DNA of 64,000 nt. Source: Acidobacteriota bacterium (GTDB lineage: Bacteria > Acidobacteriota > Blastocatellia > Chloracidobacteriales > JADJPF01). A program made the translations under genes and the position numbers. The notes under the pieces are model-generated. The model was not told the origin of the DNA and searched no databases. It was given only the letters and a program-made list of their open reading frames with translations. Shown one piece after another: positions 3,963 to 60,684 of the stretch. Numbering within the stretch: position 1 is the first letter of the stretch; every line of letters begins with the position of its first letter. The stretch is taken from assembly GCA_016213785.1 (NCBI GenBank), contig JACQZQ010000100.1, positions 1-64,000 of the forward strand, written 5' to 3'.

Positions 3963-5738
3963 ATGTTACGAGCTAATGATGAAATTGGGCCTTATACTCT
4001 AGTTCGTCAATTAGGACGAGGTGCTTTTGGAGTAGTTTGGCTAGCTGAACGTCGTGGAAAACTGGCTACTACACAAGTAGCCGTAAAATTCTCTATAGAT
4101 GAAGAACCTGATATAGAAGAAATTACTAAAGAATCTCATCTGTGGGCAACCTTAGGTAAACATCCAAATATCCTACCAATAATTGAAGCTGAAATTTATG
4201 GAGAATATGTTGTTGTTGTAAGTGAGTTTGCTCCAGATGGCTCGCTAGATAGCTGGTTAAAGCGTCATGGAGGTAGTGCTCCAAGTGTTGAATCGGCCTT
4301 AAGGATGGGAGTAGGGATTTTATTAGGGTTAGAACATCTACACTCAAGAGATATAATTCATAGAGATCTTAAACCTGCAAATATTTTATTACAGGGCGAT
4401 ACTCCTAGACTTGCTGATTTTGGTTTGGCTCGTATGCTAAAAGCTACAGCTAAAACAAGTAATATTGCTGGTACTCCCACCTATATGTCTCCTGAGTCTT
4501 TTGATGGAGATAGGTCTATTCAAACCGATATTTGGGCAGTAGGTGTTATGCTCTATCAACTTTTAACTGGTTCCTTGCCTTTTGATAATATTGGTATGGC
4601 TTTAATGAAGTCTATACTTATTGATGAGCCAAAACCATTACCAGACAATATTCCTATTACAACTAGAGAAATTGTTTCTAAAGCACTACAAAAAGACCCT
4701 GTAAAGCGTTTTTCTTCTGCTCAAGAAATGAGACAAGATTTAGAAAATTGTTTGTTTCAAACTAACTCAGATACCCTAAAACAACCTATAGAGTTATATG
4801 CAGATTTACCTAATCTAAGTAGATCTGATTTTGAAGAACTAACAGCTAACACAATGACTCAGGTAGAGGATCTTAATGATGCATCTTCAGGCAAACCAAA
4901 ACTATTTTTTGAATTTGATGTTTTAGTCCTAGAACATGATGGAGCAGTAAGAAAACGCTATGTGCGTCAAAATAGGTATTTTGTCGAGGAGCTAGATCAA
5001 AAAAATTATTTAGAAATGGTTTATATTCCTAAAGGAATTTTTTTAATGGGTTCACCAGACTATGAAATAGGGCACTCTAGCGATGAAAGCCCATTACATG
5101 AAGTAAATATAGAACCTTTTTATATAAGTAAAACAACTATTACTCAAGCTCAATGGCGTGTAGTTGCATCTTGGCCTAAAGTAAAACGTAAATTGAGTTT
5201 AGACCCCTCTCATAGTAAAGGGGATAAATTTCCAGTAGAGCAAGTTTCTTGGGAAGAAGCTATGGAATTTTGTGCGCGTTTATCAGAAAAAACAGGTAGA
5301 GTTTTTAGGCTTCCTAGCGAAGCAGAGTGGGAATATGCTTGTCGTGCTGGTACAACAACTCCTTTTTCCTTAGGTGATACAATTACAACAGATTTAGTTA
5401 ATTACAATGGAAATATGCCTTATGCCCAAGGGCCAAAAGGAGTTTTTCGCCGTCATACTGTTGAAGTTGCAAACATGGTTGTAGCTAATGCTTTTGGACT
5501 CTTTGATATGCATGGTAATGTTTGGGAGTGGTGTTTAGATACTTATCAAAGTAGTTATGAAAATGCCCCTAATGATGGGAAAGAATGGCAAATAGAGTCT
5601 AGTACTGGTATGGGCTGGAAAGTATTACGGGGAGGGGCTTGGAATGTAGGGAGTGCTAATTGCCGCTCAGCATCACGCTTTAAGCTTATACCAGATATTA
5701 AACCTCACTATGTTGGGTTTCGTGTAGTTGTAATCTAA
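3963..5738 (+). CDS. Soluble Ser/Thr protein kinase fused to a SUMF1-like (FGE-sulfatase) domain
   Basis: Residues 10-265 form a Hanks-type kinase: glycine-rich loop GRGAFGVVW, catalytic HRDLKPAN near 133, DFG in ADFGLAR, and GTPTYMSPE activation segment. A linker is followed at about 350-590 by a SUMF1/FGE-like domain (GIFLMGSPDYE, FRLPSEAEWEYACRAG, DMHGNVWEWC, LRGGAWN, VGFRV). Genuine formylglycine-generating enzymes carry a close cysteine pair just after the RGGS motif; here that stretch reads GGAWNVGSANCRSA with only one Cys, so FGE catalysis is unlikely and a C-type-lectin-like binding or other role is more plausible. No TM helix is visible, so it should be cytosolic. Coupling to the DDAH-like gene suggests a shared function. 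Confidence 0.88.
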   Translation: MLRANDEIGPYTLVRQLGRGAFGVVWLAERRGKLATTQVAVKFSIDEEPDIEEITKESHLWATLGKHPNILPIIEAEIYGEYVVVVSEFAPDGSLDSWLKRHGGSAPSVESALRMGVGILLGLEHLHSRDIIHRDLKPANILLQGDTPRLADFGLARMLKATAKTSNIAGTPTYMSPESFDGDRSIQTDIWAVGVMLYQLLTGSLPFDNIGMALMKSILIDEPKPLPDNIPITTREIVSKALQKDPVKRFSSAQEMRQDLENCLFQTNSDTLKQPIELYADLPNLSRSDFEELTANTMTQVEDLNDASSGKPKLFFEFDVLVLEHDGAVRKRYVRQNRYFVEELDQKNYLEMVYIPKGIFLMGSPDYEIGHSSDESPLHEVNIEPFYISKTTITQAQWRVVASWPKVKRKLSLDPSHSKGDKFPVEQVSWEEAMEFCARLSEKTGRVFRLPSEAEWEYACRAGTTTPFSLGDTITTDLVNYNGNMPYAQGPKGVFRRHTVEVANMVVANAFGLFDMHGNVWEWCLDTYQSSYENAPNDGKEWQIESSTGMGWKVLRGGAWNVGSANCRSASRFKLIPDIKPHYVGFRVVVI

Positions 5739-9182: not shown

Positions 9183-11498
9183 TTATTTTCTTTTAAGTTG
9201 ATAAAGTCTAGTTTGTGGGTCATGTGGGTGATTTTTACCTGTACGGCCAAAACTAAGAACATCCATAGGACAACTAACTACACAAGCAGAACAGCGTACA
9301 CATTGAATATCATTCATAGGACGACCCTGACCTGCATAACCCATTACATCTATTCCCATATGACAAACCTTAGTGCAAATATTACAATTAATACATTTAT
9401 CTTTATCAGCAAAGATCCTATAGCTAGAGAATTTTGTATAAATATTCATTAATGCTGCAAGAGGACAACCATAGCGACACCAAATCCTACCAGAATAGAA
9501 AAAATATGTTCCTAACCCAATTGTTCCAGCAAATCCTATATCTATAAATAATGTATACCATTTATATAGATTCTCACTAATTTGCTCTAAACTAATACCA
9601 AAAAAAGTTATAGTTCCATAAGAAAACCAATGCCCTAAAATCCAAATAAAAGTTATTAAAAAAATACTAAATAATATTATTTGGCTAAGGTTTTCCCATT
9701 TTTTAGCAGTAGCTCCATGCGGAGCAAGTGTCCGATAACTATCGCCAAGAGTTTCTGCTAACCCTCCACAAGAGCAAATCCAGCCACAATAAGCACCTTT
9801 ACCAAAATAATAAATTAAAATTGGGATAATAATAAAAGTTTGTACTATGCTAACCACTAACCAAAACATTATTGGTTGATTAGTAAATAAATTATAGATA
9901 AAAAGAGGGTAAGCCAAAATAAAACCGTAAACTCTCCAATAAGAACCATTAGGAAAAGCATTTTGTTCTAACCACTGAGGTAGGAGTTTATGCTCAAGCG
10001 TCCAAGGCAAAAAATATTGAGGTAATAAAAAGAGCAAAAATACTTGAAAGAAAATTAATGAAAAAGTTTGTTTTGTAATATAAGAATTATTTTTATTAAT
10101 AATTCGCTTAATACCAAAAACTACTATTGTTAAACTATAAAGAAAACTATACCAAAAATCAGCAGTCTTATTTAATAAAAGAAAATGCTCTTTACCACTA
10201 ACATACCATAAAGAAAATAGAGAAATTCCTAGAGTCGTTATTATTAAAAGGCTTGGGGCAATTAAATGTTTTATACTAATCTTTTTATTTACAGCTAAAT
10301 ATCCAATAAAAGCCAGTAATATACTAATAAGAATAGTTAAACTTGGAGCAACCAATTCAGATAATTGTCCTGATTGTTGTAAAAGAGAAGTTCCTGTTAA
10401 ATGTTTACCAAAATAAACTAGGGTAAAAATAAAAACAGATAAACAATAGAAAAAAAATCTAATTAATGTCCAGCTATTTTCTATTTTAATGCCAATTTTT
10501 TCCAAAAATTCATAGGGAAGTTCTGCCCCTATCATCTTAAAAACTAAATCATTAGGTAACTTTATTTCTTCCTTTCCAAGCTTTAGAATTACTGTTTTAT
10601 TCTGTATTTCCTTAACTTGTGAATTAAAAATTACTTTAATTTTGTTTTCTTTTATATGTTGGTTGATTTTTATGGAATTAGCACTTTTAAGACGAAAAAA
10701 TTTTTCTTGACGATAAGATAAAGTAACCTTGTTTGTATCAGCTAAGGCTAAAGCGCTTTCTACTGCTGAATCTCCGCCTCCTATCACTAGAATATTTTGA
10801 TTTTTATAGTCTTGAGGATTGTAAAATTTACTACTTACTTTAGAGAGATTTTCACCTTTAATATTTAGCTTGCGAGAGTTAGCAGACTGACCTATTGCTA
10901 GGACTACATTGCTAGCAAAAAGACTAGGGTGATTTTCTGTAAAAATTTCAAAAATTCCATTACTATTTTTCTTTATATCCTCTACTTTCATTCCTTCAGA
11001 AATTAGTAGTTTTTCATCTTCTAAAACTTTATACCAGGAATTTAATGTATCTTCTTTAGTTGCTAAAGTAACAGGTAGTTTACTTGGTGAAGTAAGGCTT
11101 GTAGGTTCAGCAAAAATCATTTTTCCGCTAGGGAAATTGGCTATTGTATTTGCAACTCGGCTAGCTTCTAAAACTATATATTTAAGATTTTGTTTTTTGG
11201 CTTCTAATGCAGCAGAAAGTCCTGCTGCGCCTGCTCCAATGATTACTACATCATAAATATTACTACTTTCATCGGGTTTTTCTTGAAAAGGTTTTATCTC
11301 TTTAGTGATTTTGTTGATTACATCATAGCCTTGCTTAGTTGCAAATTTTAGTAAAGGTAAGCCAGTAATATCTCCAATTAAATAAAGGTTAGGAATTTCT
11401 GATTCATCAGTATTTTTAAGTATAGGGTAATGTAGTACATCTCCAACAGGATTATCCTTTTGTAGCCAGTCAAAATAACGCTTAAAGAGACTAAACAT
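9183..11498 (-). CDS. FAD-dependent reductase fused to a NapH/CcoG-like polyferredoxin membrane protein
   Basis: A 771-aa composite redox protein. After an N-terminal stretch (NLYLIGDITGLPLLKFA) that resembles the C-terminal FAD-contacting end of thioredoxin-reductase-like enzymes, a flavin domain begins with GAGAAGLSAA at 88-97 and an NAD(P)-site GGGDSAVESA near 240. From about 345 there are some ten hydrophobic segments. The second half carries CGWICSCGG and WCRYGCPLAA, as in NapH/NosR/CcoG-type proteins, then two 4Fe-4S motifs near the C-terminus (CINCNICTKVCHMG and CVRCSACVVSCP). The layout implies electrons passing from NAD(P)H through flavin and Fe-S centres across or along the inner membrane. 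It lies directly downstream of the anti-sigma gene (10-base gap), probably in the sigma operon. The acceptor is unknown. Confidence 0.85.
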   Translation of the reverse strand: MFSLFKRYFDWLQKDNPVGDVLHYPILKNTDESEIPNLYLIGDITGLPLLKFATKQGYDVINKITKEIKPFQEKPDESSNIYDVVIIGAGAAGLSAALEAKKQNLKYIVLEASRVANTIANFPSGKMIFAEPTSLTSPSKLPVTLATKEDTLNSWYKVLEDEKLLISEGMKVEDIKKNSNGIFEIFTENHPSLFASNVVLAIGQSANSRKLNIKGENLSKVSSKFYNPQDYKNQNILVIGGGDSAVESALALADTNKVTLSYRQEKFFRLKSANSIKINQHIKENKIKVIFNSQVKEIQNKTVILKLGKEEIKLPNDLVFKMIGAELPYEFLEKIGIKIENSWTLIRFFFYCLSVFIFTLVYFGKHLTGTSLLQQSGQLSELVAPSLTILISILLAFIGYLAVNKKISIKHLIAPSLLIITTLGISLFSLWYVSGKEHFLLLNKTADFWYSFLYSLTIVVFGIKRIINKNNSYITKQTFSLIFFQVFLLFLLPQYFLPWTLEHKLLPQWLEQNAFPNGSYWRVYGFILAYPLFIYNLFTNQPIMFWLVVSIVQTFIIIPILIYYFGKGAYCGWICSCGGLAETLGDSYRTLAPHGATAKKWENLSQIILFSIFLITFIWILGHWFSYGTITFFGISLEQISENLYKWYTLFIDIGFAGTIGLGTYFFYSGRIWCRYGCPLAALMNIYTKFSSYRIFADKDKCINCNICTKVCHMGIDVMGYAGQGRPMNDIQCVRCSACVVSCPMDVLSFGRTGKNHPHDPQTRLYQLKRK

Positions 11499-37086: not shown

Positions 37087-39408
37087 ATGATAGAAAATGA
37101 TTTTGTTTCTTCTCAAAAACTAACACCAGATCCTTTATTAAATTTAATATTAAAAGGTACTTACAAAATTGAGGAAAAAATAGGGCAAGGTGCTACTGGA
37201 TCGATCTACCGAGCTACTCAATTAGAAACTAGTCATAATGTTGCAGTTAAAATACTTCGTGCAACAGATATTTCTCTACAAGCCAAAGCACGGTTTTTTA
37301 GGGAAGCTAAAGCTCTTAGTAAGCTAGATCATCCAAATATAATTAGCCTTTTTGATTATGGTGTTACAGAAACAGATATTTGTTTTATGGTGATGGAATA
37401 TGCTGTTGGTCTTACAATAGATCAAATTGTTCCTAAAGAAAGTGGATTACCGGTCAAAGTTATCTTAAACATTATGGAAAAACTTTGTTCAGGAATTGAA
37501 GCTGCCCATAAACAAAAAATAATCCATAGAGATCTTAAACCTTCTAATGTACTTATTACTAATACTACATCTAAAACACAAGATGTTAAGATTTTAGATT
37601 TTGGTATTGCTAAAAGTTTAGAGGGTTTTATTGATGAAAATCCACGTTTAACAAAAGAAGGTGTAGTTTTAGGCACACCTAGCTATGTTTCACCAGAACA
37701 AATTGATCAACTAAAAGATATTGACTGTAGAGCAGATATATATGCTTTAGGAGCAATTCTTTACTATATGTTTACTGGAGGTGATCCTTATGTAGGAAAA
37801 ACATCAGAAATAATTAATAAACAAATTAGAGAACCAATTACTAATAAATCTGCTAGGTTTAAGACCATAGAGGGTCAGGTTTTTAGCCCCATACTATCTA
37901 AAGCTATGAGTATTAAGAGAGAAAACCGCTACCAAACAGTAGAAGAGCTTTTTAACGATCTCTCACAAGGTTGTTTGCAAGCAGGTCTTTTGAAAGATTC
38001 TAAAGCAGACCCATCAAAAAAACCTAAACCAACCCAACCACTTGATATAAATAGCCTTTTACTTGCTGAGGATGGTTTTTCTAATACTAATCCATTAACA
38101 AATGACTTAAAACAAGAGGAGGCCCAGAATATGTCTTTTACAAGAAAAAATAGATTTGTTTCAGTTGGTATTCTTTTAACAATATTACTAGCCTTTGCAA
38201 TATCTATTCTACTGTATTTAAACAGAACCACTCCTCCTGATGCTCTTTCTAACAATAACCTACCATCCCAATCATCTTCATCAAATGGTGGTCAACAAGG
38301 AGTAACAGATACAGAAATCCTAATGGGTATGAGTGCAGCTTTTTCTGGATCAGCTAAAGAACTGGGCAGGCAAATGAAATTAGGTATAGACACTTATTTT
38401 AATGAAATAAATTCTGGTGGCGGAATCAATGGCAGAAAAATAAACCTAATAAGCTTAGATGATGGTTATGAGCCTGATCGAGCTTTACAATCAGTCAAAG
38501 AGTTGGTAGAGAATAGAAAAGTATTTGGAATAATTGGAAATGTTGGAACACCAACCGCAGAAATTACCGTCCCTTATTGTTTAGAAAAAAAGACTTTATT
38601 TTTTGGTGCTTTTACTGGTGCAAGCTTATTACGTAAAGACCCTCCTGATAAATATGTATTTAACTATCGCGCTAGTTATGCAGAAGAAACAGCCTATATT
38701 GTTGAATATTTAGTAGATATCAAGAAATTGCGCCCATCAGAAATTGCAGTATTTGCCCAAAATGATAGCTATGGAGATGCTGGGTTTTCAGGAGTGGTTA
38801 AAGCCATGCAAAAATATAAATACAGTAAGTCTCAAATATTAAGGGTTGGTTATAATCGAAATACCTTAGATATAGAAGAAGCCGTAAATACTGTATCAAA
38901 AAATAGATCTAAGTTAAAAGCAGTTGTAATGGTTTGTACTTATAAAGTAGGAGCTAAGTTTATTCAACAGTTAAAAGACCAAGGTTCAACCTTGATTTTT
39001 ACTAATGTTTCATTTGTTGGTAGTAATGCTTTATCAGAAGAATTAATGAGTTTAGGCCCAAAATATGCTAATGGAGTAATAGTTACACAAGTAGTTCCAC
39101 ATTATGAGTCAAATGCTGCCACAATAATAAAATATCGAGAGCAATTAAAAAAATATTTCCCAAATGAAGAACCAGGATTTGTTTCTTTAGAAGGATATTT
39201 AGCAGCAAGAATTTTCTGTGATGCAATAAGTGTGACAGGGAAAAAAGTTACTACTGATAATCTTATTAGTAGCTTAGAGTCAATTCGTGATCTTGATATA
39301 GGTATTGGCAGTATAATTAATTTTGGCCCCTCTGAACATCAAGGATCTCATAAGATTTGGGCTACAGTTTTAGATGATAAAGGTAAATATAAAGATCTAG
39401 ATAATTAG
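37087..39408 (+). CDS. Transmembrane Ser/Thr kinase with an extracellular LivJ-type ligand-binding domain
   Basis: A 773-aa sensor kinase. The cytosolic kinase domain (about 23-290) has GQGATGSIYRAT, AVKIL, HRDLKPSN near 147, LDFGIAK and GTPSYVSPE. One TM helix lies at about 357-378 (VSVGILLTILLAFAISILLYL). After a Ser/Gln/Asn linker, residues 405-773 form a complete periplasmic-binding type I domain of the branched-chain amino acid receptor class: TEILMGMSAAFSGSAKELG, FNEINSGGGINGRKI, GIIGNVGTPT, AVFAQNDSYGDAGF and FVSLEGYLAARIF. The layout implies that binding of a small ligand outside controls phosphorylation inside. The gene stands alone, ending at a bidirectional terminator. Confidence 0.92.
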   Translation: MIENDFVSSQKLTPDPLLNLILKGTYKIEEKIGQGATGSIYRATQLETSHNVAVKILRATDISLQAKARFFREAKALSKLDHPNIISLFDYGVTETDICFMVMEYAVGLTIDQIVPKESGLPVKVILNIMEKLCSGIEAAHKQKIIHRDLKPSNVLITNTTSKTQDVKILDFGIAKSLEGFIDENPRLTKEGVVLGTPSYVSPEQIDQLKDIDCRADIYALGAILYYMFTGGDPYVGKTSEIINKQIREPITNKSARFKTIEGQVFSPILSKAMSIKRENRYQTVEELFNDLSQGCLQAGLLKDSKADPSKKPKPTQPLDINSLLLAEDGFSNTNPLTNDLKQEEAQNMSFTRKNRFVSVGILLTILLAFAISILLYLNRTTPPDALSNNNLPSQSSSSNGGQQGVTDTEILMGMSAAFSGSAKELGRQMKLGIDTYFNEINSGGGINGRKINLISLDDGYEPDRALQSVKELVENRKVFGIIGNVGTPTAEITVPYCLEKKTLFFGAFTGASLLRKDPPDKYVFNYRASYAEETAYIVEYLVDIKKLRPSEIAVFAQNDSYGDAGFSGVVKAMQKYKYSKSQILRVGYNRNTLDIEEAVNTVSKNRSKLKAVVMVCTYKVGAKFIQQLKDQGSTLIFTNVSFVGSNALSEELMSLGPKYANGVIVTQVVPHYESNAATIIKYREQLKKYFPNEEPGFVSLEGYLAARIFCDAISVTGKKVTTDNLISSLESIRDLDIGIGSIINFGPSEHQGSHKIWATVLDDKGKYKDLDN

Positions 39409-39473: not shown

Positions 39474-40949
39474 TTAATTAACTCCATCTAGATCTGACCA
39501 ATCTGCTACAAAGCGAGATTGTGAGCGTTCTACTTTAGCCGCAGAGTAAATATTATGTTCGCTTCGAGAGATTTTTTTCTGTGCATATAAACCCTCTAAG
39601 AAAAACTCACATGCAGATATTAGTAGCCCGGATTGACTAGTATTTAATGCTCGATTATTTTTAATCAAGTGAAATAAACCATTGATTGCTTTAAGTGTAA
39701 CTAAATAATCATCATCTTTTATTGTGTCAGAGCTTTGTAGTGTCCCACCTAAATTAAACCAATCTACTATTGGTGCAATAGCAGAATTATTAAAATAGCG
39801 CATAAAAGTTTGACCTACAGCACGTTTAATTAAGTCATAAGCAATACGGTCTGCTCCTAGCTGCTCACCTTCATACTCAAGTTCTAATTTTCCAGTAATC
39901 GTAGGCAATGATGCATAAATATCACTAATTCTAGGAACAATTAAACTACTACTATTAAATAGCATACGGCGTTCAGCATTACTTATAACGCTTTCTAATG
40001 TGCTAATAGGTAGCCGTTGACTTACACCTGAACGTTTATCAATTCGGCTATCTTGGCGAGCAACAAAAGCAATATGTTCAATAATTTCTAGGATATAAGG
40101 AGGGATTTCTAAAGTATTTTTAGGAAAGCGATTAATCCAAGCTTCTTGTCTAGTAATACTAATTCCATCTTCTACAGTTTTGGGGTAATGAGTATGGATT
40201 TCCGCCCCAATACGGTCTTTAAGCGGGGTAATGATTTTGCCTCGGGCAGTATAGTCTTCTGGGTTAGCAGAAAAGACCATTGCTACATCTAAAGGCAGGC
40301 GAATAGGATAGCCTTTGATTTGAATATCGCCTTCTTGCATTATATTAAAAAGTCCAACTTGGATTTTACCAGCTAAATCAGGAAGTTCATTAATAGCAAA
40401 AATCCCTCGATTTGCACGAGGTAGTAACCCATAATGAATTGTTAGCTCATCAGATAATAAATAGCCACTACGAGCTGCTTTAATCGGGTCAACATCGCCT
40501 ATTATGTCAGCAATTGTTACATCAGGAGTAGCAAGCTTTTCTACATAACGTCTATCACTAGGGATAAAATTAATAGGAGTATTATCACCTAATTCATTTA
40601 TTTGATTATGACAAGCACGACACAAAGGTGCATAAGGGTTATCATTAATCTCACAACCAGCAACTATAGGTAAATGTTCATCAAGAAGACTAGTTAAACT
40701 ACGCAAAAGACGACTTTTAGCCTGTCCTCTTAGTCCAAGTAAAATAAAGTTATGTCTAGATAAAATAGCATTAATTACTTGAGGAATAACAGAGTCTTCA
40801 TAACCCATTACACCAGGAAAAAGAGTTTCTCCATTTTTTATTTTGCGAATTAAAGTTTCTCGCATTTCTGTCTTAACCGTTCTATTACGATATTTAGCTT
40901 CACTATATTCACTAGATTTAAGTTCTTTAAGGGTAGAAGGAAGTAACAT
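39474..40949 (-). CDS. AAA+ ATPase of the Mg-chelatase I/MoxR type
   Basis: A 491-aa ATPase resembling the ChlI/BchI and MoxR group. FILLGLRGQAKSRLLRSL is the Walker A region with Ala before Lys-Ser, as in MoxR proteins. RANRGIFAINELPDL occupies the Walker B position with Asn-Glu in place of Asp-Glu. Between them, GCEINDNPYAPLCRACH carries extra cysteines, and VFSANPEDYTARGKIITPLKDRIG is sensor-1 and arginine-finger territory. It is not a chlorophyll enzyme by context: no BchD or VWA partner gene is adjacent. MoxR-type ATPases act as chaperones for metal-enzyme or surface-protein assembly. It follows ftsH after a terminator. Confidence 0.82.
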   Translation of the reverse strand: MLLPSTLKELKSSEYSEAKYRNRTVKTEMRETLIRKIKNGETLFPGVMGYEDSVIPQVINAILSRHNFILLGLRGQAKSRLLRSLTSLLDEHLPIVAGCEINDNPYAPLCRACHNQINELGDNTPINFIPSDRRYVEKLATPDVTIADIIGDVDPIKAARSGYLLSDELTIHYGLLPRANRGIFAINELPDLAGKIQVGLFNIMQEGDIQIKGYPIRLPLDVAMVFSANPEDYTARGKIITPLKDRIGAEIHTHYPKTVEDGISITRQEAWINRFPKNTLEIPPYILEIIEHIAFVARQDSRIDKRSGVSQRLPISTLESVISNAERRMLFNSSSLIVPRISDIYASLPTITGKLELEYEGEQLGADRIAYDLIKRAVGQTFMRYFNNSAIAPIVDWFNLGGTLQSSDTIKDDDYLVTLKAINGLFHLIKNNRALNTSQSGLLISACEFFLEGLYAQKKISRSEHNIYSAAKVERSQSRFVADWSDLDGVN

Positions 40950-58874: not shown

Positions 58875-59840
58875 TTATCCATTATTTACTTTAGCTGACC
58901 AGGTTTGACTAATTTGCTCACCTTCAACATTAAAAATAGCCCCTTGCCAACTTACTAGCTTTTGTTCAGAAAAAACAAAATCCACTCTTCCTACATTAAT
59001 TCCCCCAAAACCTACTTGGAAAATCAACGTTTCTTTCCCATTACCATGTTTAATTACTTCAGGTTCTTTCATAAAAGTATGAGTGTGGCCGCCAACAATA
59101 AAATCAATATCAGGAATAGTTTTAGCTATGTTTACATCAGAAGGTCTATCAGGTTCATTTTCATAGCGATAACCTAAATGAGAAAGAGCTATTACTAGAT
59201 CTACTTTATGAACATCCCTAAGCTCTTTTACAGCTTTTTTAGCAGGCTCAATTGGGTTTTCCCAGCTAACACCAATATGCTTATCTTTTGTTACTAGCCC
59301 ATCAAAGTTTATGCCTAAGCCTAAAAGACCAATTTTTATTCCTGATAAATTACGTATTACATAAGGTTTAACAAAATTTTTTAAAGGAGAATTTTCTACA
59401 TTATAGTTGACCGATACAATATCAAATTTTGCATGTTCTAATGCTTTAACTAAACTTTCTACCCCATCATCAAAGTCATGATTACCTAAAGTAATAACAT
59501 CATAACCTATTGCAGACATTGATTTTATTTCTAGCTCACCATGATAGAAATTAAAGTAGGGTGTGCCTTGAAAACTATCACCGCCATCAAGTAGTAGAGT
59601 ATTTGGATTTTCATTGCGAATCTGACGTACAAAAGTAGCACGCCGGGCTACACCTCCTAGACCTGCATTGCGAGTGCCTGGAGGAAAAGGCTCTATCTGA
59701 GAGTGGGTGTCATTAGTATGTAAAATTGTGATTTTAGTTGTGTTATTTTTAATTCCACTAACAGGATAGAAATTACTGCTACTAGCTAAAAAGGTACTAG
59801 CTAGAATAGTTTTAAGAAACTCTCTGCGTTCTATAGCCAT
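58875..59840 (-). CDS. 5'-nucleotidase/UshA-type metallophosphatase domain protein, Tat-type signal
   Basis: A 321-aa calcineurin-like phosphoesterase half of a UshA-type nucleotidase. Metal motifs: HTNDTHSQIEPF near 40, DGGDSFQGTP, TLGNHDFDDG, SHLGYR, and GGHTHTF. The N-terminus ERREFLKTILASTFLASSS is a twin-arginine-type signal (RRxFLK), so it is probably exported folded with metals. The usual C-terminal substrate-binding domain is missing here and instead forms the separate upstream gene. Likely substrates are nucleotides or related phosphoesters in the periplasm. Confidence 0.88.
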   Translation of the reverse strand: MAIERREFLKTILASTFLASSSNFYPVSGIKNNTTKITILHTNDTHSQIEPFPPGTRNAGLGGVARRATFVRQIRNENPNTLLLDGGDSFQGTPYFNFYHGELEIKSMSAIGYDVITLGNHDFDDGVESLVKALEHAKFDIVSVNYNVENSPLKNFVKPYVIRNLSGIKIGLLGLGINFDGLVTKDKHIGVSWENPIEPAKKAVKELRDVHKVDLVIALSHLGYRYENEPDRPSDVNIAKTIPDIDFIVGGHTHTFMKEPEVIKHGNGKETLIFQVGFGGINVGRVDFVFSEQKLVSWQGAIFNVEGEQISQTWSAKVNNG

Positions 59841-59886
59841 AATTATTCTATCTCCAAAGATTTCAAGTAGTATAAGCTTAGATATG

Positions 59887-60684
59887 CTATTGAGCGTTAG
59901 TTAAACTAACTCTTGGTTTACTGGGTGCTACAATAGAGCGTTTTTCTGCTTGTTCTGTCTTAATGTGGTTAATAATTGCGTCTCTAAGCAGTAGATTACA
60001 GGTTTGATATTTTTGTCCGCGTCTTAAAATAGGATATTCTCCACCACCATTATAAAGGTAATCTGTTAAAGCTAGAGTATAAGTTGCATTGATATCAATG
60101 TCTTTTTCATTGATTTTAGCACTAACTAATTTTTTATCTTGATAGGTTAGTTGTGCTCCTGCTATTGCAGCACCAAAATCTTTAATACTTGGTGCCATAC
60201 TCTCAAAAAGCTCCATTAAGTCCTTTCCTGAAAGTTCTATTACCGCAACTTGATTATCAAATGGCATTAAACGGTAAATCGTTCCTAGCGTAATCTCACC
60301 TGCTGGAATTTCTGCTCTAATTCCTCCATTATTTTGAAAAGCAAGATCAATCGATTTACCCAATGCAAGACTAGCTTGCTTACGAATTATGTCTGTCATT
60401 AGCATTCCTAAGCGGCCTGCCCCTGCTCCTTCTTTGTTAATAGTTTCAGGGGCTTGACCAATAACTGTCTCCATCTGTTTTTTTATATCTACCGAATAAG
60501 GAGCTAACATTTCAGTTAAAGCTTTATCCTCAGCAATTGAACTGTCAATTTTATGTTGATTTATTTGGGTTTGATAAGTGGTAGTGGCAGATTTAGTCGC
60601 TTGTTGTGCATAAGTAGAGAAATTAAATAAAAGAATTAAGGCTAAGGAGTAAAATAGATAAAAACTTTTCCTATTTCCAGTCAT
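59887..60684 (-). CDS. 5'-nucleotidase C-terminal-domain protein, secreted
   Basis: A 265-aa stand-alone version of the UshA 5_nucleotid_C domain: GRLGMLMTDIIRKQA, AFQNNGGIRAEIPAGEITLGTIYRLMPFDNQ and LYNGGGEYPIL, which supply the adenine-stacking and substrate loops. A Sec signal (YLFYSLALILLFNFSTYAQQ) precedes it. It is the first gene of a two-gene unit, 46 bases from the metallophosphatase half, so the enzyme seems to be a heterodimer assembled from two polypeptides using different export routes (Sec and Tat). That is inferred from the signals. Confidence 0.88.
   Translation of the reverse strand: MTGNRKSFYLFYSLALILLFNFSTYAQQATKSATTTYQTQINQHKIDSSIAEDKALTEMLAPYSVDIKKQMETVIGQAPETINKEGAGAGRLGMLMTDIIRKQASLALGKSIDLAFQNNGGIRAEIPAGEITLGTIYRLMPFDNQVAVIELSGKDLMELFESMAPSIKDFGAAIAGAQLTYQDKKLVSAKINEKDIDINATYTLALTDYLYNGGGEYPILRRGQKYQTCNLLLRDAIINHIKTEQAEKRSIVAPSKPRVSLTNAQ

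Follow-up and report, generated by a model that had tools for sequence, protein, structure and literature searches.

What stimulates bacterial Ser/Thr kinases is for the most part unknown and has been called an outstanding question (PMC6069109). Ser/Thr kinases that contain a solute-binding domain were recorded in a 2005 survey for Nostoc sp. 7120 (an ANF_receptor domain) and Streptomyces coelicolor (a Gln/Glu solute-binding protein, SBP) (PMC1262709), and a 2018 paper mentioned MSMEG_1200 together with about 260 other SBP kinases listed in InterPro (PMC6069109). The PASTA receptor kinases PknB, PrkC and Stk1 consist of an N-terminal Hanks kinase, one transmembrane (TM) helix and an external sensor. 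In the PknG-GlnX-GlnH system, an external SBP controls a Ser/Thr kinase through three separate proteins, the kinase being soluble and the SBP belonging to another family, that of the polar amino-acid binders. SBPs fused to kinases form the CDD group PBP1_STKc_like, a name that was not found in the literature searched.

Here we describe a fused kinase of 773 amino acids from an Acidobacteriota bacterium, encoded in a 64,000-nucleotide stretch of DNA that was analysed as a whole and is referred to as the window. Like the kinases of Nostoc sp. 7120 and S. coelicolor, which come from other phyla and to which it is likened by description, and like MSMEG_1200 and StpK7 of Mycobacterium and Streptomyces (PMC6069109), it carries kinase and SBP in one polypeptide, i.e. 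the architecture of the STK-SBP fusion receptors (PMC1262709); the Nostoc protein also has a branched-chain-amino-acid-type (ANF receptor) domain. This architecture is already known and the window protein is a further example, so the rarity implied in a preliminary description of the locus is not supported, fusions having been described since 2005 (PMC1262709) and numbering about 260 in InterPro by 2018 (PMC6069109). Nothing specific was found in the literature searched for the exact pair of domain names of the window protein.

The protein falls outside the StpK7 class (NF052427; 148.6 bits against a cut-off of 900, with a match over the kinase only) as well as the PASTA kinase class (NF033483; 259.7 against 450 bits, over residues 21-378 only), and no Pfam match to PASTA repeats was obtained in it. 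It shares with PknB, PrkC and Stk1 the succession of N-terminal Hanks kinase, single TM helix and external sensor, but the sensor is a Venus-flytrap domain instead of PASTA. Control of the kinase by an external SBP, as in PknG-GlnX-GlnH, is what we propose for the window protein.

Domain organization of the fused kinase

The protein is read from a single uninterrupted ORF without internal stops, whose start codon, ATG, is the first ATG, GTG or TTG downstream of the preceding stop (Table 1). From the N to the C terminus it comprises a Hanks-type Ser/Thr kinase, a disordered linker, one TM helix and a complete Peripla_BP_6 domain, and the preliminary description, which had placed kinase, single TM helix and complete Peripla_BP_6 in one ORF, is borne out by the ORF reading, Pfam and AlphaFold2.

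Inspection by eye recovered the full set of core kinase motifs, namely GQGATG (33-38), K55, E73, HRDLKPSN (147-154), DFG (171-173), SPE (202-204), D217 and R281; with its P-loop, Lys/Glu pair, HRD..N, DFG and APE-type Glu, the domain belongs to the Hanks-type (eukaryotic-like) Ser/Thr kinases. The catalytic residues are invariant in an alignment of 21 out of 21 fused proteins, and the nearest solved kinase is PknB of M. tuberculosis. A basic TRKNR motif directly precedes the TM segment, which predicts a cytoplasmic kinase and an external C-terminal SBP. The AlphaFold2 model of the full chain, computed as a monomer only from the 21 fused proteins and with an overall pTM of 0.51, has a helix at residues 357-378 and disordered flanks at about 305-357 and 380-401.

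The Peripla_BP_6 match (PF13458; cut-off 31.7 bits) covers profile positions 4-343 of 343 and the domain is therefore complete, a full-length two-lobed domain of the type-I periplasmic-binding protein class. A model of the external domain alone, built from 51 aligned sequences, reached a mean pLDDT of 96.2 and a pTM of 0.94; the Pfam search and modelling that had been proposed as a check of this region thus both returned a complete SBP with high confidence. The closest solved structure is 4kv7, a probable LIV-binding protein of Rhodopirellula baltica (TM-score 0.94, 40% identity), which belongs to the same SBP subfamily and has the motifs GNVGTPTA, FGAFTGA and SFVG in common with the window protein, but was solved as a soluble binding protein whereas the window SBP is tethered to the membrane and to a kinase. 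The structural neighbours that follow are LIV-type binding proteins for many ligand classes, among them proteins that bind aromatic acids, fatty acids or urea.

Table 1. Positions of the fused kinase, its parts and related proteins (window coordinates, except for the last row)
Feature	Position	Strand	Evidence or occurrence
Receptor-type Ser/Thr kinase with periplasmic-binding-protein sensor, 773 aa	37087..39408	+	Single ORF; Pfam; kept in relatives
Protein kinase domain, residues 26-281	37162..37929	+	Pfam Pkinase, 170.7 bits, E 5e-50
Lys55	37249-37251	+	Catalytic Lys
Catalytic loop HRDLKPSN	37525-37548	+	Kinase motif
DFG	37597-37605	+	Kinase motif
Mostly disordered, fast-diverging juxtamembrane linker, residues 300-356	37984..38154	+	Low pLDDT; alignment of three same-genus fusions
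Single transmembrane helix, residues 357-378	38155..38220	+	Hydrophobic stretch; AlphaFold2 helix
Extracytoplasmic type-I solute-binding domain (Peripla_BP_6), residues 413-767	38323..39387	+	186.4 bits, E 1.5e-54; 4kv7 match; pocket mapping
Ser642, at the LivJ Glu226 position	39010-39012	+	LivJ alignment
DUF4388 (PATAN)-TM-Peripla_BP_6 proteins	L034 (1495-3240, -), L035 (phylum set); L065, L067, L070, L071, L075, L076, L107 (named set)		Acidobacteriota and Myxococcota

We read this protein as a single-pass, ligand-gated receptor Ser/Thr kinase, with a probability of roughly three in four. The C-terminal Venus-flytrap domain would take up a small solute in its cleft, outside the inner membrane, and close, which would alter the arrangement or dimerisation of the receptor, and the movement would be transmitted via the single TM helix to the cytoplasmic kinase, which would be switched by autophosphorylation in trans and would then phosphorylate target proteins. 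Ligand binding, the direction of the switch, dimerisation and the substrates are the parts of this scheme that we infer.

Several observations concern other genes of the window. A further Ser/Thr kinase fusion, with a formylglycine-generating-enzyme (FGE-sulfatase) domain, lies at 3963-5738 (+), and at 9183-11498 (-) one 771-residue protein unites a pyridine-nucleotide-disulphide oxidoreductase, a membrane part and 4Fe-4S ferredoxin domains. Adjoining the fused kinase is an AAA-type, chelatase-like ATPase (39474-40949, -), for which Pfam gave nothing at 1e-4 and NCBIfam only weak hits to subunits of cobalto/magnesium chelatase. A 5'-nucleotidase is split into two genes in reversed order (58875-60684, -), the 5_nucleotid_C gene (59887-60684) preceding the metallophosphatase gene (58875-59840).

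Distribution of the fusion

A metagenome-assembled genome (MAG) of the same genus, labelled Blastocatellia bacterium, carries the fusion twice, with 80% (L005) and 64% (L027) identity over the whole protein and 88% and 76%, respectively, over the SBP domain. In an alignment of the three same-genus fusions, linker and TM segment have diverged while kinase and SBP are both conserved. A scan of named genomes with the SBP domain gave 480 relatives, and among the best 80 of these, which were retained, 20 are kinase fusions; they come from Blastocatellia, Thermoanaerobaculia, other Acidobacteriota, Planctomycetota and Myxococcota, and from single MAGs labelled Deltaproteobacteria, Emcibacter and 'bacterium'. 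In 58 relative genomes fusions were confined to the genus of the window, and 297 genomes of the phylum yielded three further ones (L036-L038). The distribution is patchy. No relatives were found in viral contigs and a viral origin was rejected.

The preliminary description had named two outcomes that would speak against it, a frameshift or assembly error between the domains and absence of the fusion from relatives. Both fail: the fusion recurs in the same genus (twice), in Acidobacteriota, in Planctomycetota and in Myxococcota. That an ABC-transporter SBP gene was accidentally joined to a kinase gene might be suspected of a draft genome in 132 contigs, but it is scarcely credible when the same fusion is present in two copies in an independent MAG and in at least three phyla, the frame is open throughout and a TM helix stands between the two domains; a frameshift or misassembly artefact was rejected by the same-genus MAG and the relatives in other phyla.

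The putative ligand pocket

The residues of the E. coli LIV-binding protein (LIV-BP) that form hydrogen bonds to the ligand are Ser79, Ala100, Thr102, Tyr202 and Glu226, with Glu226 acting on the ammonium group (PMC13103812). An alignment with LivJ, at 19-20% identity, places Thr488, Ala508, Thr510, Thr618 and Ser642 of the window protein at these positions. Two of the four side chains that hydrogen-bond the ligand in LIV-BP are lost, including the acidic residue holding the amino group, and the amino-group anchor of the LivJ pocket is, by this alignment, gone from the window SBP. Its carboxylate side could be retained, and another residue, e.g. the invariant Glu702, might substitute for the anchor.

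Members of Peripla_BP_6 often bind branched-chain amino acids (PMC9602780), and the SBP might accordingly bind one of these or a similar free amino acid and inform the kinase about amino-acid supply, which would be our reading with a different ligand. The threonines at the LivJ Ser79 and Thr102 positions, which contact the ligand carboxylate, are consistent with this, as is the precedent of the GlnH-GlnX-PknG pathway, which senses amino acids (PMC6069109). We nevertheless consider such a ligand unlikely. The position of Glu226, which holds the ammonium group in LIV-BP (PMC13103812), is occupied by Ser in 51 of 51 aligned sequences (Thr488 is equally invariant) and that of Tyr202 by Thr in the window protein, whereas two LivJ-type transport SBPs of the same genome retain an acidic residue, Asp, at the former and Tyr at the latter; the ligands of the structural neighbours, moreover, extend to aromatic acids, fatty acids and urea.

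Because the amino-group anchor is lost, we class the window SBP as LIV-type by fold only and not as a branched-chain amino-acid receptor. The term 'branched-chain-amino-acid-type' used in the preliminary description holds for the fold but not for the specificity, given the changes of Glu226 to Ser642 and of Tyr202 to Thr618; the set of contacts that defines the LivJ/LivK specificity class (Ser79, Thr102, Tyr202, Glu226) is not found in full. The ligand is probably something other than a free branched-chain amino acid held in the LivJ fashion, and a carboxylate without an alpha-amino group is one candidate class; the aromatic acids named in the preliminary description are candidates too.

Gene neighbourhoods

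The 18 closest free-standing, plainly secreted relatives of the SBP domain (L125-L142) were compared with low-similarity LivJ-type SBPs from the 58 relative genomes as a rough control. A gene for a chemoreceptor (MCP), histidine kinase or GGDEF protein lies nearby in 13 of the 18 loci, 12 of them identified by phmmer within about 4 kb (11 within about 350 bases) and one, L142, by a histidine-kinase-type ATPase neighbour in Pfam; no signalling neighbour was identified by phmmer or Pfam for the other five, and LivH/LivM occur near one, L127. In the control, ten SBPs adjoin LivH/M or LivG/F and one adjoins a histidine kinase, the two sets being counts and not a matched enrichment test.

No transport gene was found near the fused kinase gene of the window. 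With its SBP tethered to a kinase and without linked LivH/M/G/F, the protein does not belong with the substrate-binding proteins of ABC transporters. The same genome has a complete LIV operon elsewhere (G000:C91), with two LivJ-type SBPs, LivH, LivM, LivG and LivF. The gene neighbourhoods of the window copy and of a same-genus copy have nothing in common, their flanking genes being different, and for this reason the context suggests no kinase substrate.

The main task of the tethered SBP domain might alternatively be docking or capture, by binding another envelope protein or presenting solute to a transporter, such that this partner and not a small ligand directly regulates the kinase. Docking on receptors is an established mode of action of solute-binding proteins (PMC9602780), and the gene of one DUF4388-SBP protein, L070 (5626-9076, +), an exception to the pattern of missing transporters, lies directly upstream of LivH/M/G/F-like genes, with L127 as the free SBP near LivH/LivM. 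We regard this explanation as improbable, somewhat more so than an amino-acid ligand: LivH/M/G/F homologues were not found in the examined flanks (up to about 4 kb, some short) of the 20 fused kinase genes in named genomes, the Liv system of the genome has two SBPs of its own, and the sensor is fused to or paired with very different signalling outputs. The sensing role, as opposed to transport, had been inferred in the preliminary description and is strengthened by the genome context and by the swapping of modules described below; signal transmission and the nature of the ligand remain presumptive parts of the receptor-kinase reading.

The sensor as a shared module

In eight relatives, with 56-60% identity in the SBP, a DUF4388 (PATAN) domain and a hydrophobic segment replace the kinase before the same SBP subfamily (Table 1, where L065 is apparently the same gene as L034 and its layout was judged from the match to it). 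Members of the same SBP subfamily are secreted in alphaproteobacteria, e.g. Bradyrhizobium, where they have an N-terminal extension, and are plain secreted proteins in Gammaproteobacteria, Cloacimonadota, Nitrospirota and others. In a tree of the SBPs, those of the kinase fusions, the DUF4388 proteins and the alphaproteobacteria group together on a single, strongly supported branch (100/100) that excludes the plain secreted SBPs, and the grouping of all kinase-fused SBPs in one clade was not rejected (p=0.19). For the fused kinase domains, one clade and with it a single origin were rejected (AU p=3.5e-6, delta lnL 157); they fall into about four groups, i.e. Acidobacteriota, two in Planctomycetota, and Myxococcota; the background of the kinase tree was a small set, the genome of the window and four fusion-bearing genomes, so that 'four' is approximate, and L200, identical to the kinase of L113, was excluded from it before the AU test.

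Two histories would account for this, repeated capture of the sensor or exchange of the kinase beneath it. That a number of unrelated kinases and further signalling proteins have the domain in common suggests that it is a portable chemical sensor. We would give even odds to the broader proposal that this LIV-type subfamily is a portable, signalling-dedicated chemosensory module, which was joined independently to several Ser/Thr kinase lineages and to DUF4388 (PATAN), has chemoreceptors, histidine kinases and diguanylate cyclases as partners in trans, and probably has one conserved ligand across phyla that is not a branched-chain amino acid. No description of the DUF4388-for-kinase exchange, of the several kinase lineages or of the frequent pairing of free SBPs with signalling proteins was found in the literature searched.

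The kinome of the whole genome (G000, 6.4 Mb) is very large, with 170 Pkinase-domain matches, some of them partial, and more than 130 kinases, nearly all of unknown input. Being soluble and easily expressed, and having a fold for which binding assays are established, the candidate sensor of the window kinase makes the identification of its ligand a direct experiment, and a single answer might extend to the chemoreceptors, histidine kinases and diguanylate cyclases relying on this SBP subfamily.
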